Positions 8,383-61,140 of a stretch of 64,000 bases of DNA are shown piece after piece. Source of the stretch: Salinimicrobium sediminis (GTDB lineage: Bacteria; Bacteroidota; Bacteroidia; Flavobacteriales; Flavobacteriaceae); contig NZ_OCMF01000001.1 of the NCBI RefSeq assembly GCF_900215295.1, positions 1,240,001 to 1,304,000 of the forward strand. Direction: 5' to 3'. Within the stretch, counting starts at the first letter, position 1, and every line of letters begins with the position of its first letter. The notes beneath the pieces are model-generated. The model searched no databases, had not been told where the DNA came from, and saw nothing but the letters and a program-made list of their open reading frames with translations. The position numbers and the translations under genes were made by a program.

Positions 8383-8390
8383 TACTTTTG
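8383..8390 (+). promoter_or_regulatory. -7 box of tRNA-Leu
   Basis: TACTTTTG, a perfect TAnnTTTG match, ends 10 bp before the first base of the tRNA. No TTG at -33 distance is present. Confidence 0.6.
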
Positions 8391-8400
8391 CCCTCCACTT

Positions 8401-8482
8401 GCTCGAGTGGCGGAACTGGTAGACGCGCTGGATTCAAAATCCAGTGTCTTCGGACGTGCGGGTTCGATTCCCGCCTCGAGTA
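8401..8482 (+). tRNA. tRNA-Leu (anticodon CAA)
   Basis: A full class II cloverleaf: acceptor GCTCGAG (8401-8407) pairs with CTCGAGT (8475-8481, one G-U), anticodon stem CTGGA/TCCAG (8428-8432 and 8440-8444) with loop TTCAAAA and anticodon CAA at 8435-8437, a long variable arm with TTCG loop (8446-8455), and T arm GCGGG-TTCGATT-CCCGC (8458-8474). CCA is not encoded. The 3' end from 8461 on is duplicated twice more downstream, at 8815 and 9170, as part of the tandem GIY-YIG units. Confidence 0.97.
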
Positions 8483-8485
8483 CTT

Positions 8486-8518
8486 AAAACCCTCTTGTTA
8501 TTACAGAGGGTTTTTTTT
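8486..8518 (+). terminator. Rho-independent terminator after tRNA-Leu (first repeat unit)
   Basis: AAAACCCTC at 8486-8494 pairs with GAGGGTTTT at 8506-8514 and is followed by a run of eight T. It belongs to the repeat unit, since an identical copy is present in the second unit. Confidence 0.85.
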
Positions 8519-8530
8519 ATTATTGGCCGT

Positions 8531-8768
8531 ATGTATTATGTCTACGCTATCCAGTTTATCCTGTACTTATATTTATTTTGGTTTAACCCATAATCACGAA
8601 AGACGGATTAAACAGCATAACAGCGGACTGAATAAAACTACAAAACCTTATTTACCTTTTAAAGTTATATATCTGGAAGAATTTCAGGATCGACCCTCTG
8701 CCTGAAAGAGGGAAAAGTATTTAAAGTCAGGAATTGGCAAGGAGTTTCTTAAAAATTTAAAGGAGTAG
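8531..8768 (+). pseudogene. Broken GIY-YIG nuclease gene (unit A)
   Basis: Nearly identical to the intact gene at 8884-9123 but with a 2-bp deletion after codon 6 (GCTATCCAG here, GCTATATCCAG there) that shifts the frame into an early stop, and a second in-frame stop (TGA in place of AGA) near the catalytic helix. It is therefore the older or inactivated copy of the tandem pair, the one next to the tRNA. Confidence 0.88.
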
Positions 8769-8796
8769 CTTATTTTAATTTTTCTGAAAGTGCGGG

Positions 8797-8816
8797 CCTG
8801 CCTGCCGGCAGGCAGG
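8797..8816. repeat. 20-bp perfect palindrome inside a tRNA 3'-end copy
   Basis: CCTGCCTGCCGGCAGGCAGG. In the real tRNA the sequence is GTGCGGGTTCGATTCC; here 20 extra bases sit between GTGCGG and GTTCGATTCC, so the uninterrupted target can be read off. Identical copies lie at 9152-9171, 35061-35080 and 47741-47760. Confidence 0.9.
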
Positions 8817-8839
8817 TTCGATTCCCGCCTCGAGTACTT

Positions 8840-8871
8840 AAAACCCTCTTGTTATTACAGAGGGTTTTTTT
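8840..8871 (+). terminator. Terminator of repeat unit B
   Basis: Second copy of the hairpin AAAACCCTC/GAGGGTTTT with a T-run, located 13 bp before the intact GIY-YIG gene. It would shield that gene from transcription coming through unit A. Confidence 0.75.
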
Positions 8872-8883
8872 ATTATTGCCTGT

Positions 8884-9123
8884 ATGTATTATGTCTACGC
8901 TATATCCAGTTTATCCCGTACTTATATTTATGTTGGTTTAACCGATAATCACGAAAGACGGATTAAACAGCATAACAGCGGACTGAATAAAACTACAAAA
9001 CCTTATTTACCTTTTAAAGTTATATATCTGGAAGAATTTCAGGATCGACCCTCTGCCAGAAAGAGAGAAAAGTATTTGAAGTCAGGAATTGGCAAGGAGT
9101 TTCTTAAAAATTTAAAGGAGTAG
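8884..9123 (+). CDS. Small GIY-YIG nuclease family protein (unit B, intact)
   Basis: A 79-residue single-domain GIY-YIG protein of the UPF0213/YhbQ type. The motif is YVYAI (GIY position, residues 3-7) and YIYVGLT (YIG position, about 14-20), followed by the conserved Arg in NHERRIKQHNSG and the catalytic Glu in ARKREKYLKSG (about residue 62). All catalytic positions are present, so it may cut or nick DNA. It has no extra DNA-binding domain. It sits between a terminator and a 20-bp palindrome inside a 355-bp unit that copies the tRNA-Leu 3' end; no ordinary promoter is evident. It may be the mobility gene of the unit, but this is inference. Confidence 0.85.
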   Translation: MYYVYAISSLSRTYIYVGLTDNHERRIKQHNSGLNKTTKPYLPFKVIYLEEFQDRPSARKREKYLKSGIGKEFLKNLKE

Positions 9124-9151
9124 CTTATTTTAATTTTTCTGAAAGTGAGGG

Positions 9152-9171
9152 CCTGCCTGCCGGCAGGCAGG
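9152..9171. repeat. 20-bp perfect palindrome, second copy
   Basis: Same sequence as at 8797-8816, again inserted before GTTCGATTCCCGCC of a tRNA 3'-end copy; here the left flank is GTGAGG, one base different from the tRNA. Confidence 0.9.
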
Positions 9172-9213
9172 TTCGATTCCCGCCTCGAGTACTTATTGAA
9201 TTTAAATAAAGCT

Positions 9214-9250
9214 AAAACCACGTCAACTTAATTGTTTACGTGGTTTTTCT
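9214..9250 (+). terminator. Terminator beyond the tandem units
   Basis: AAAACCACGT (9214-9223) pairs with ACGTGGTTTT (9238-9247), followed by T-rich sequence. It is 19 bp after the third partial tRNA 3' end and is probably the ancestral tRNA-Leu terminator. Confidence 0.8.
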
Positions 9251-9328
9251 TTTACTTACCATGAAAGGTCAACCTGAACAAAAACCTGACGCTGTTTACA
9301 AAAGTGCAAATGCTCCGGGTATTTCAGC

Positions 9329-35040: not shown

Positions 35041-35140
35041 GGGTGCTGCTGCGCACCGGGCCTGCCTGCCGGCAGGCAGGCTTTCCGCTATATTTTTTTG
35101 CCCTTAAGAGGCAAAAAAGATGCCGCTGCAATCCCTGCCC
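35041..35140 (+). repeat. Conserved-end hairpin element, copy 1 (interrupted by the 20-bp palindrome)
   Basis: Within the 219-bp mgtE-cupin gap. It shares CTTTCCGCTNATA at one end and CCGCTGCAATCNCT at the other with the element at 44621-44710, whereas the central hairpins differ in sequence (here TTTTTTGCC 35094-35102 with GGCAAAAAA 35110-35118). Conserved ends with an exchangeable stem suggest a mobile or structured-RNA repeat. Confidence 0.65.
35060..35081. repeat. 20-bp perfect palindrome, third copy (22 bp with flanks)
   Basis: CCTGCCTGCCGGCAGGCAGG at 35061-35080, extended to 22 bp by flanking G and C. It splits CACCGGG from CTTTCCGCT, the left end of the conserved-end element. Confidence 0.9.
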
Positions 35141-35192
35141 CAACTTCTATTTTGTAATTTAGAATCTTCTGAAAGTTTCCACAATATCATTT

Positions 35193-47558: not shown

Positions 47559-47810
47559 ATTGAGGTGCGACGGACCACCCCATCTCCGCTCCGCGGATCC
47601 ACCCCTCCTTAAAACATGGAGGGGAGCTTTACCGAAACAACTTTGCTGTTTCGCTTGGTAAAACCTGGGTTTAGTAAAGCCAAGAAGTGAAGTAAAATTT
47701 TAAATAGTAGTACAAATAGCTCCTTCCCTTGCTAAGGGAACCTGCCTGCCGGCAGGCAGGGGTGGCTCCGGCGAATAGCCGGAGACGGAAGGGTCCAACC
47801 ACGCAGAATC
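47559..47810. other. Ligase-helicase spacer with palindromes
   Basis: This 252-bp gap between co-directional cluster genes has hairpin CCCCTCC/GGAGGGG (about 47602-47624), the 20-bp palindrome at 47741-47760 and a GGCTCCGGCGAATAGCCGGAG hairpin-like stretch (about 47764-47784). No gene is seen. The other junctions of the cluster are shorter, so these repeats seem to have entered an operon. Confidence 0.55.
47741..47760. repeat. 20-bp perfect palindrome, fourth copy
   Basis: Same CCTGCCTGCCGGCAGGCAGG, here between CCCTTGCTAAGGGAA and GGGTGGCTCCGG, 51 bp before the helicase ATG. Confidence 0.9.
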
Positions 47811-51847: not shown

Positions 51848-54800
51848 TTGAGTAAATCTTCTATTGCCCAAAGCTTTGCACAGTCGGCTCAACAGCTTGA
51901 ACTGGGGAAAGCCCTTGCCCTGCCGCGAACTCATGTTGAACTCAAAGGCCTTGTTGGGTCGGCACTTTCGTTTGTGGTGGCGAACGCTTTTGAGGAAGCT
52001 GAAAAGCCTTTTTTGCTGATCTTCAATGACAAAGAAGAGGCTGCTTATTATCTAAATGACCTCGAGCAGCTGTTGGGTGATAAGAATGTGCTATTCTATC
52101 CCGGAAGTTATCGCCGGCCTTACCAACTGGAGGAAACCGATAATGCCAATGTACTGCTGCGGGCAGAAGTGCTCAACAGAATCAATTCCCGAAAGAAACC
52201 GGCTCTAATAATAACTTACCCGGATGCTCTTTTTGAGAAGGTAGTAACGCGGAAGGAACTTGAGAAAAATACGCTGAAGATCAAAGTTGGCGACGAACTG
52301 TCCATTGATTTTGTAAACGAGGTGATGTTCGAGTACAAGTTCCAAAGGGTGGACTTTGTGACCGAACCCGGAGAGTTTTCCGTGCGTGGAGGGATCCTGG
52401 ATGTATTCTCTTTTAGTAATGATGAGCCTTACAGGATAGAGTTCTTTGGAGATGAGGTGGAAAGCATCAGGACCTTTGATGTGGAGACGCAGCTGTCGAC
52501 AGATCAGGTGAAGAAGATCAGTGTGATCCCGAATGTGGAGCACAAAAGGCTTCAGGAGGTGCGGGAGAGTTTTCTGAAGTATATTTCAGATAAGACAGTG
52601 ATCTTTAGTCAGGATCCGTCGCTGATGTTTGACAGGATTGACAAGCTCTTCAGCAAAGCCGAAGAAGCATTCAAGGATCTTTCCGAAGAAATTAAGCATA
52701 ACGAACCGGAAGAATTGTTCTGCAATTCGGCACTTTTGAAAGAGCAGATGCAGGAGTATTCGCTGGTAGTGACAAGTTCAAACCAGATCCTGAAACAAGT
52801 TCAGGGTGACGCAGAGGTTAAGCAGATTGCATTCAGCACAAAACCGCAACCTTCCTTCAACAAGAATTTTGAGCTGCTTATTCAGAACCTGAGGGAGAAT
52901 ACGGAAGATGGTTATACGAATTATATTTTTTGTGTCAGCGAGCAGCAGGCCAAGCGTTTCCATGACATTTTTGACGATATGGAGGGGGAGGTGAAGTATA
53001 AGACCGTGGTGCTTTCCATGTATCAGGGATTTATTGATGATACTTTGAAGATGGTTTGCTATACAGATCACCAGATCTTTGAGCGCTACCACAAATTCCA
53101 CCTAAAGAACGGCTATGCAAAGAAGCAGGCGATCACGCTGAAGGAGCTCACCAACCTGGAAGTAGGGGATTATGTAACCCATATTGACCACGGAATAGGG
53201 AAGTTTGGCGGACTGCAAAAGATAGACGTCGAGGGCAAGAAACAGGAGGCGATCAAACTTATATATGGGGAGCGGGACATTCTGTACCTGAGTATTCACT
53301 CGCTGCACAAGATCTCAAAATATAACGGCAAAGACGGGAAGCCGCCCAAGATCTATAAACTGGGAAGCAACGCCTGGAAGAACCTGAAACAAAAGACCAA
53401 GGCGCGGGTAAAACATATCGCCTTCAACCTTATTGAGTTGTACGCGAAGCGCAGGCTGCAGAAAGGTTTTGCCTACGGGCCTGATTCTTACCTGCAGCAC
53501 GAGCTCGAGGCCTCCTTCCTTTATGAAGACACGCCCGATCAAAGTACCGCCACAGCAGATGTAAAGGCCGATATGGAAAATGAACGGCCCATGGATCGCC
53601 TGGTGTGTGGGGATGTTGGCTTCGGAAAGACAGAAGTTGCGATAAGAGCAGCTTTTAAAGCAGTAGACAACGGAAAACAGGTGGCTGTGCTGGTGCCCAC
53701 AACAATTTTGGCCTTTCAGCATTACAAGACCTTCACCGAACGCCTGAAGGATTTCCCCGTAACTGTAGATTATCTGAACCGCTTTAGAACGGCAAAAGAA
53801 AGAAAGACCACGCTGGAAGAGCTGGAGAATGGAAAGGTAGATATCGTCATAGGTACTCATCAACTAGTTAATAAGGCGGTAAAATTTAAAGATCTGGGGC
53901 TGCTGGTTGTGGATGAGGAGCAGAAATTCGGGGTGGCCGTAAAAGACAAGCTGAAGACCATCAAAGAAAATGTCGATACGTTGACGTTGACAGCAACGCC
54001 CATTCCGCGTACGCTGCAATTCAGTTTGATGGCTGCAAGGGATCTTTCTACGATTACTACTCCGCCGCCAAACCGATATCCTATCGAGTCGCATGTGATC
54101 AGATTTTCAGAAGAGACCATTCGCGACGCGATCTCTTATGAGATCCAGCGGGGTGGGCAGGTATTTTTCATCCATAACCGGGTGGAAAATATCAAAGAAG
54201 TTGCAGGTATGATACAGCGCCTGGTTCCTGATGCAAAGATCGGGATTGGGCATGGTCAAATGGAAGGGAAGAAGCTGGAGACTTTGATGCTGAAGTTCAT
54301 GAATGGGGAATTCGACGTGCTGGTTTCGACAACAATCGTGGAAAGCGGACTCGATGTGCCAAACGCAAATACCATTTTCATCAATAACGCGAATAACTTC
54401 GGGCTCTCAGACCTTCACCAAATGCGTGGGCGGGTAGGCCGGAGCAACAAAAAAGCATTCTGCTATTTCATCACTCCGCCGTACTCGGCAATGACCGATG
54501 ATGCCCGGAAGCGGATCACAGCCCTGGAGCAATTCAGCGAACTGGGCAGCGGGTTCAATATTGCGATGAAAGATCTTGAAATTCGTGGCGCAGGTGACCT
54601 TTTAGGAGGGGAACAAAGCGGATTCATCAACGAAATTGGCTTTGACACTTACCAGAAGATCCTGAATGAAGCCATAGAGGAACTGAAGGAAAATGAATTC
54701 AGGGATCTGTATGATGGCCAGGACACAGACGATAAGGAATACGTAAAAGATACGCAGATCGACACCGACTTTGAACTGTTATTCCCGGATGATTATATCA

Positions 54801-60786: not shown

Positions 60787-61140
60787 ATGAAGTTGTATTT
60801 TGTATACATTCTTGAATGCTCAGATAAACTTCTATACACAGGAATAACAAATGATATTTCCAGAAGGTTAGATGAGCATAATGCAGGTGTAAACAAGAAC
60901 AGTTTCACGTTTAAAAGGAGACCCGTAGAAGTTATTTTTCATCAGGAATTTAAGGATGTGAATCAGGCAATCTGGTTTGAAAAGAAAATCAAAAGGTGGA
61001 GCGCCCAGAAGAAGAGGGCTTTAGCCAATGATGATGAAATGCTCTTAAACTGCTGGCTGAATGCAGAAATGAGAGTCATTCTAAAAATAAGTATAATTAA
61101 AAGGGCAACTTTTAAAGAGGCCTGTACCAGCCGGTCTTGA
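60787..61140 (+). CDS. GIY-YIG nuclease family protein with repeat neighbours
   Basis: A 117-residue protein. The GIY-YIG domain occupies about 1-85: LYFVYILEC (GIY position), LLYTGITND (YIG position), SRRLDEHNAG with the conserved Arg, and the catalytic Glu in AIWFEKKIKRWS (about 63). The C-terminal 30 residues are not typical and may be read-through into degenerate sequence. Related to the gene at 8884 only through the shared fold, not as a recent copy. It lies between two clusters of CGAGCGGAGTCG-type inverted repeats, in opposite orientation on the two sides. Confidence 0.87.
   Translation: MKLYFVYILECSDKLLYTGITNDISRRLDEHNAGVNKNSFTFKRRPVEVIFHQEFKDVNQAIWFEKKIKRWSAQKKRALANDDEMLLNCWLNAEMRVILKISIIKRATFKEACTSRS

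Follow-up and report, generated by a model that had tools for sequence, protein, structure and literature searches.

Why is an intact tRNA-Leu(CAA) gene of Salinimicrobium sediminis followed by two tandem units that repeat its own 3′ end and carry a gene for a very small GIY-YIG nuclease? The locus lies in the window analysed here, a stretch of 64,000 nucleotides (contig NZ_OCMF01000001.1, positions 1,240,001 to 1,304,000, forward strand). We consider it probable that the answer is a mobile element of the homing type, with a single gene and with the tRNA gene as its target. Such an element would cut a conserved gene and put back the half that it displaces, the cutting, the repair route and the movement being inferred. 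Since more than 100 relatives of the gene sit at tRNA genes and the tRNA is left whole, the unit resembles a selfish DNA element of very small size.

The tRNA-Leu(CAA) gene is flanked by a HupE/UreJ gene on one side and by a gene for a LytTR response regulator on the other. The array is composed of the following features (window positions).

8384 to 8397, plus strand: promoter-like region ACTTTTGCCCTCCA just 5′ of tRNA-Leu, conserved by alignment at the same site in four congeners
8401 to 8483, plus strand: tRNA-Leu(CAA), intact (ARAGORN)
8463 to 8816, plus strand: unit 1, 354 bp, with tRNA 3′ end, terminator, broken GIY-YIG gene, 7-nt T-arm stub and palindrome
8487 to 8518, plus strand: terminator-like inverted repeat with T run in unit 1, read from the sequence
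8531 to 8768, plus strand: GIY-YIG gene copy 1, disrupted by a 2-bp deletion and by a TGA
8797 to 8816, no strand: 20-bp palindrome splitting the redundant T-arm at the end of unit 1
8817 to 9171, plus strand: unit 2, 355 bp, parts in the same order as in unit 1
8884 to 9123, plus strand: GIY-YIG nuclease gene copy 2, intact, 79 aa (open reading frame, Pfam, AlphaFold2)
9152 to 9171, no strand: second 20-bp palindrome, at the end of unit 2
9172 to 9192, plus strand: orphan tRNA-Leu 3′ end TTCGATTCCCGCCTCGAGTAC
9203 to 9258, plus strand: terminator-like inverted repeat past the array

The original prediction, made from the letters alone, thus holds for the anatomy of the locus: two units behind tRNA-Leu(CAA), each with the tRNA 3′ end, a terminator, the 79-aa GIY-YIG gene and a palindrome, a closing orphan, and a tRNA-proximal gene copy that is inactivated (2-bp deletion at about the seventh codon, TGA further on) next to an intact distal one. 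Its statement that no integrase is present was likewise confirmed: the main open frame of the units is the GIY-YIG gene, neither a tyrosine nor a serine recombinase was found in them, and at 354 and 355 bp they leave no room for one. The palindrome, which had been counted as a part of the cassette, is indeed present in both units (CCTGCCTGCCGGCAGGCAGG), but its place is within the redundant tRNA piece, which it divides. The T-stem copy preceding it consists of 7 nt (GTGCGGG in unit 1, GTGAGGG in unit 2) and the remainder of the T-arm, TTCGATTCCCGCC, follows directly 3′ of the palindrome. At the junction of unit 1, GTGCGGG^palindrome^TTCGATTCC, the redundant T-arm is split seamlessly, at a single exact point with no nucleotide lost and none repeated. 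Units 1 and 2 are 98% identical across a 293-nt stretch. Under an insertion model, nucleotides 8463 to 8483 of the intact tRNA would be the 3′ part contributed by unit 1. The repeat at 9203 to 9258 is probably the original terminator of tRNA-Leu, and the ACTTTTGCCCTCCA region its promoter; both assignments are inferred. The tRNA-Leu gene itself is uninterrupted according to ARAGORN, and no match to an intron family was obtained, the tRNA being the sole match at the gathering threshold in locus L001.

The intact 79-aa product matches the GIY-YIG family of Pfam (PF01541) with E=1.1e-17 over residues 1 to 67, and Y5, Y16, G18, R26 and E62 are among the residues invariant in an alignment of 31 relatives. 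AlphaFold2 predicted a single compact fold (mean pLDDT 93.9). The protein comprises the catalytic domain only, a separate DNA-binding domain being absent. The nearest solved sequences are 1ywl (E=1.7e-9) and 1zg2 (E=1.7e-8), the latter also being the best fold match of the model; their family, UPF0213, we take to be the YhbQ-type standalone GIY-YIG proteins. In sequence and fold together, UPF0213 and the SLX1 nuclease domain are nearest and I-TevI is more distant. That the protein cuts DNA is inferred, as no cleavage has been observed. A phage or plasmid origin was considered and rejected, with only distant matches available (11 phage records at 36-37% identity and 1 plasmid).

The genome of the window contains PF01541 matches at 14 places. 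Eight of these lie in four tRNA clusters (two at Leu, two at Arg(TCT), three at Phe and one at Asn), all with the tRNA first, and each tRNA has a different hairpin. The remaining six have no tRNA within 1.5 kb, and three of them (L203, L204, L206) are small genes embedded in repeats. L204 is situated in the window itself (60796 to 61014, plus strand) with repeats of the type CTCGACTCCGCTCGACC. L203 (G000:C8:1450810-1451745) is surrounded by a cluster of 8 copies of a palindromic 25-mer, ATGCTGAAACAAGTTCAGCATGACG, which has 15 copies in all; the other 7 copies are dispersed in the genome, 4 of the 7 retain the palindrome via paired stem changes, and a dispersed copy with 3 mismatches is found at 52787 to 52811 (plus strand) of the window. 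At L212 (G000:C8:1152423 region), two intact tRNA-Asn genes are followed by an incomplete tRNA-Asn 3′ piece with CTGTCCCGAGCGAAGTCGAGGG at its border, then by a GIY-YIG gene and a second orphan that is split by CCCCGATAGCTATCGGGG.

If the array had been inserted, close relatives should include empty sites, and to look for them had been proposed together with the original prediction. The arrangement of HupE and tRNA-Leu is kept in 4 of 11 congeners. In G006 and G007 the site is empty with a homologous promoter region; as these two are near-identical at the site, they count as approximately one observation. The site of G010, again with a homologous promoter region, is filled in the order orphan, gene, tRNA and carries two palindromes. 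G011, the closest congener, likewise has a homologous promoter region but an altered site (L065, ~2240-2390) in which an orphan tRNA-Leu 5′ piece is followed by a tRNA-Leu(CAA) of different sequence and then by unrelated DNA, perhaps another self-restoring insert.

Related genes were collected in two ways. A scan of genome contigs, performed once, yielded 48 loci, 46 of which have a tRNA gene on the same strand within 800 bp; one of the two exceptions (L029), located at the edge of a contig, seems to begin within the 3′ end of a tRNA. A profile built from 31 relatives was then run against 249 genomes of the family Flavobacteriaceae and found a match with E<=1e-12 in at least 117 of them. We examined 89 loci from this search, 30 as returned and 59 from the matches listed, down to about E=2e-17; five matches listed within this range (G279 C3, G267 C67 and C72, G227 C81, G122 C190) and all weaker ones were omitted. 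In both sets together, a tRNA gene lies within 400 bp on the same strand at 120 of 137 loci, and on the opposite strand at none. One locus occurs in both collections, leaving 119 of 136 distinct loci at a tRNA. The tRNAs involved cover 18 anticodons; a look for the unit at other tRNA genes had been proposed as a check of the original prediction. Because the profile was built from tRNA-linked relatives, these frequencies hold for this lineage and not for GIY-YIG proteins in general. For the 17 relatives without a tRNA within 400 bp, an Rfam search of 12 loci revealed no other structured RNAs except a tmRNA in L180, together with a weak tRNA in L119, and a laxer RNA search of 16 loci, including 7 tRNA-less relatives (among L150-L177), added nothing new for those 7.

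The window layout is not the prevailing one. Among the 120 tRNA-linked loci, the gene follows the tRNA in 30, as in the window, and precedes it in 90, where the tRNA starts at a median of 14 nt past the end of the gene match. To score orphans, we required a far-side piece of the same tRNA with an alignment score of at least 12 and used tRNAs of another isotype as control. Such a piece was detected in 92 of the 120 loci (75/90 gene-first, 17/30 tRNA-first) compared to 16 of 600 control comparisons (13/450 and 3/150, respectively). The 28 loci below the threshold divide into 15 of the 90 gene-first and 13 of the 30 tRNA-first loci, the tRNA-Asn group making up 8 of the latter 13; inspection by eye revealed short or degraded pieces in some of the 28 (L035, L053) and none in others. 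At least two consecutive gene matches are present in 18 of the 137 loci, with a maximum of 8, and in the arrays L098, L121 and L130 every unit has its own split orphan. The proposal that a one-gene nuclease element inserts at a tRNA end and restores it is supported by the recurrence at tRNA genes and by the empty and filled sites, although mobility itself was not observed. It needs correction in that the 3′ end is not the rule, the 5′ half being the one duplicated in 90 loci versus 30.

The nuclease lineage and the tRNA isotype are linked. On a tree of 131 proteins, the isotype label (12 isotypes and 'none', 13 in all) changes 25 times compared to 80 times when shuffled, and none of 200 shuffles was as low. 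The tree rests on 77 columns and is weakly resolved, 74 of its 127 inner branches being open. Its Leu group mixes records of Flavobacterium, Bacteroidales, Ignavibacteriae and Patescibacteria, the last being metagenome bins, which can be wrong. Across phyla, the isotype is predicted by the nuclease lineage; the simplest reading is that the nuclease determines the target and that the element moves between distant hosts, a movement that is inferred. Targets are not confined to tRNAs. In L152, L153, L169 and L170, genes that start with the motif (I/V)TGGAGFIG are interrupted at the same codons, GGAGF^IG, and the gene start is doubled, with orphan and restored start differing from each other. Two of these four genes were checked in Pfam and encode NAD-dependent epimerases/dehydratases. 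In L150, the insertion lies in another gene, which is left broken.

These data can be joined in the following way. The 79-aa GIY-YIG nuclease would cut the tRNA gene at a preferred point, and repair from an element-bearing copy would then insert the nuclease gene together with the displaced tRNA half. The tRNA would be whole again, presumably at little cost to the host, and at the other end a short redundant tRNA piece would remain, often split by a palindrome at the presumed cut point. Displacement of the 3′ half would result in the order tRNA, gene, orphan seen in the window, and displacement of the 5′ half in the order orphan, gene, tRNA. The palindrome might mark the cut and make the spare piece uncuttable. 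In the orphan-gene-tRNA layout the tRNA promoter would often lie 5′ of the orphan, putting nuclease gene and tRNA on one transcript. A promoter-like TTTGC was found 5′ of the orphan in 38 of 71 gene-first loci and between the gene and the intact tRNA in 3 of 71, and judging from this position the intact tRNA seems to depend on read-through from the nuclease gene. Given such a shared transcript, which is inferred, loss of the insert could cost the host the tRNA. Tandem units may arise by re-insertion or by unequal recombination between tRNA pieces, and our data do not separate the two. The homing reading has the difficulty that the enzyme consists of the catalytic domain alone, with no part for DNA binding. 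Moreover, the restored tRNA retains the presumed target, so that self-protection is unexplained.

The palindromes require separate consideration. With a strict detector, which produces a few false detections (e.g., L063, L161), an insert inside the orphan was found in 79 of the 120 loci (64/90 gene-first, 15/30 tRNA-first). The split positions cluster at tRNA nucleotide 22 (23-24 in Leu), 8-9, 15, 32 and 61-65, which in our own mapping coincide with, or come close to, the limits of cloverleaf helices. Inserts sharing one tRNA position have widely different sequences, and a single mobile palindrome sequence for all loci was rejected for this reason. The 12-bp core of the window palindrome occurs at 8 sites in its genome, the reversed control at none. 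One 20-bp copy in the window (35061-35080) overlaps the end of an Rfam Flavo-1 RNA match (~35070-35143, minus strand), and another (47741-47760) lies inside a minus-strand open frame of 87 aa that reads LPAGRQ there. In the family, the 20-mer is found in 50 of 249 genomes (reversed control 0), and many of the copies listed are away from gene matches. Twenty such regions were inspected. Two of them in genome G223, L183 at tRNA-Thr and L184 at tRNA-Gly, are tandem units of 112 and 108 bp without a nuclease gene, built in the order tRNA 3′ end, spacer, inverted arm, palindrome, orphan. Of the others, L191 is a tRNA-Leu orphan at a contig end, L199 has the palindrome in a 16S rRNA/tRNA-Ile spacer and L190 in a 104-bp tandem repeat; the rest are intergenic, in open frames or beside other inverted repeats, with no common rule visible among them.

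This distribution invites a different explanation, namely two-part transposition, in which the GIY-YIG protein mobilises short palindromes, these land preferentially in copies of tRNAs, and units with the gene represent the autonomous form. It gains support from the tie between 20-mer and gene, a match with E<=1e-12 being present in 42 of 50 palindrome genomes versus 75 of 199 palindrome-less ones (Fisher p=2.9e-9) and in all 21 genomes that have at least two copies, as well as from the gene-less palindrome units at tRNA-Thr and tRNA-Gly, from the lack of a target duplication at the 20-bp inserts and from the other small GIY-YIG gene, L203, among copies of a different palindromic repeat. The association is, however, partly built in, as the orphan palindromes belong to the counted loci, and the wide differences between inserts at one position make a single recognised sequence unlikely. 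We regard two-part transposition as possible but doubtful. The gene-less units matter in another respect, since a unit without a GIY-YIG gene in related genomes had been named as a finding that would refute the original prediction. G223 also carries the nuclease gene; its gene-less units look like non-autonomous copies and were read as such. With similar reserve we suggest, as a conjecture only, that small GIY-YIG proteins of Bacteroidota and Patescibacteria drive an unrecognised class of DNA elements. It would comprise autonomous units (a nuclease gene with duplicated parts of a conserved gene on either side) and non-autonomous ones (a palindrome with a gene piece, or bare palindromes), spreading seamlessly without transposase or integrase, with the target set by the nuclease lineage and the dispersed palindromes as offspring.

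The closest rival to homing is a target-duplicating insertion. Two distant nicks would create a long target-site duplication of 20-80 bp without any tRNA half being carried along, after which one copy remains functional and the other decays and collects palindromes. The position of the duplicated stretch would account for both layouts and, where a split is seen, the duplicated piece covers both of its sides. In 5 of 71 gene-first loci the duplication reaches 22-58 nt into the native flank, which on sequence grounds points to local duplication there. On the other hand, 64 of the 71 have no match scoring at least 8 past tRNA nucleotide 1, the repeat stopping near the end of the tRNA gene, and the first 21 nt of the orphan equal the tRNA in 35 of 71, with a mean agreement of 0.44 in the 20 nt outside. 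Duplicates so delimited are unlike plain local duplication, and we consider a target-duplicating insertion unlikely.

A role at the RNA level, in which the hairpin-split tRNA piece forms a leader or tail whose structure serves the regulation or processing of the nuclease mRNA, would fit the many splits at or near cloverleaf helix boundaries and the shared transcript inferred from the promoter position. The inserts also fold well: compared to mononucleotide shuffles, 74 unique inserts gave a median z of -2.7, with 48 of 74 below -2. Nevertheless, folding does not differ between the sense and the antisense strand (28 lower, 39 higher, 7 equal; p=0.24), so that selection on the transcript strand is unsupported, and the insertions in epimerase-type genes lack any tRNA. 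A transcript-level role of the palindrome was rejected on the absence of a strand preference when both strands of the 74 inserts were folded, and the RNA-level device as a whole appears very improbable. Finally, although slippage can yield direct repeats of 20-40 bp around a gene and unit 2 of the window, 98% identical to unit 1, resembles a tandem duplication, an old local duplication of the tRNA 3′ end that caught an unrelated nuclease gene with nothing mobile involved is hardly tenable, being largely contradicted by the recurrence at 120 loci with 18 anticodons, each time on the strand of the tRNA, the empty sites of congeners (an old duplication shared by all relatives would have refuted the original prediction) and the link between isotype and lineage.

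If the homing reading is right, the unit would be a near-minimal bacterial selfish element, made up of a single gene of 79 codons plus a patch that repairs the essential gene broken by the insertion, and a bacterial equivalent of the mobile ORFs known from fungal mitochondria, aimed at highly conserved genes; this conservation of the targets would explain the spread across phyla. It would then be possible to test directly how a bare GIY-YIG domain locates its target, and there would be a lead on the origin of the short palindromes scattered in Bacteroidota genomes. Of practical use, it would account for a class of partial tRNAs and of tRNA-like repeats in tandem.

Several known systems share single traits with this family. 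UPF0213 proteins are likewise standalone GIY-YIG proteins and nearest in sequence and fold; our literature searches found no report linking them to tRNAs or palindromes. Integrative elements with tyrosine recombinases at tRNA 3′ ends also restore the displaced 3′ end, whereas the present units have no recombinase and duplicate the 5′ half more often than the 3′ half. REP sequences are thought to be mobilised by REP-associated transposases (RAYTs), which are HUH/Y1 transposases. As in REP/RAYT systems and REPINs, short dispersed palindromes are tied in abundance to a single-gene enzyme, but the palindrome-linked gene here, for which only linkage is established, is a GIY-YIG and not an HUH/Y1 gene, and the palindromes occupy preferred positions within tRNA copies. 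The GIY-YIG homing endonucleases studied so far usually possess a DNA-binding domain beside the catalytic one. With the free-standing members of this group our family has in common the conserved catalytic core, occupied and empty alleles and the lack of a self-splicing intron host; unlike in intron-less homing elements, the DNA-binding part is missing.

Two known systems come closest, phage SegB and the mobile ORFs found in mitochondria of fungi. In T-even phages, SegB is encoded by an intron-less GIY-YIG gene among tRNA genes and, according to the available parts of PMC13096335 and PMC2988022, cleaves tRNA-containing DNA and drives tandem amplification, probably via microhomology between the 5′ region of the tRNA-Tyr gene and the 3′ region of segB. 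The free-standing GIY-YIG enzyme, the location at tRNAs and the tandem amplification are thus shared with SegB and other Seg homing endonucleases. SegB lies between phage tRNA genes, whereas the genes described here lie on bacterial chromosomes and, in the window, encode 79 aa with the catalytic domain only; their lineage tracks the isotype, whereas the accessible portion of PMC13096335 reports no isotype preference for SegB. Neither a split-and-restored tRNA gene nor palindromes are described for SegB in what was available of PMC13096335 and PMC2988022. For bacterial tRNA genes, no description of splitting and restoration by a GIY-YIG gene was found in the open-licence literature, and the accessible text of PMC1564403 and PMC10448857 does not mention it. 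The mobile ORFs (Allomyces atp6; Glomus atp6, atp9, cox2 and nad3) combine an endonuclease gene with a duplicated gene end, so that the host gene is whole and the native orphan lies on the far side. In Glomus, the available part of PMC3630166, on which this description rests, indicates LAGLIDADG enzymes in three of the four cases, GIY-YIG in atp9, and a restored 3′ end whose carried copy has clearly diverged. Their targets are the 3′ ends of protein-coding mitochondrial genes, in contrast to the family of the window, which is found mostly at tRNA genes, at either end, and often with an identical carried copy. The mobile ORFs are the best mechanistic precedent, to which the present family adds bacterial tRNA targets, an enzyme reduced to its catalytic domain and a link to palindromes that are present elsewhere in the nuclease-bearing genomes.
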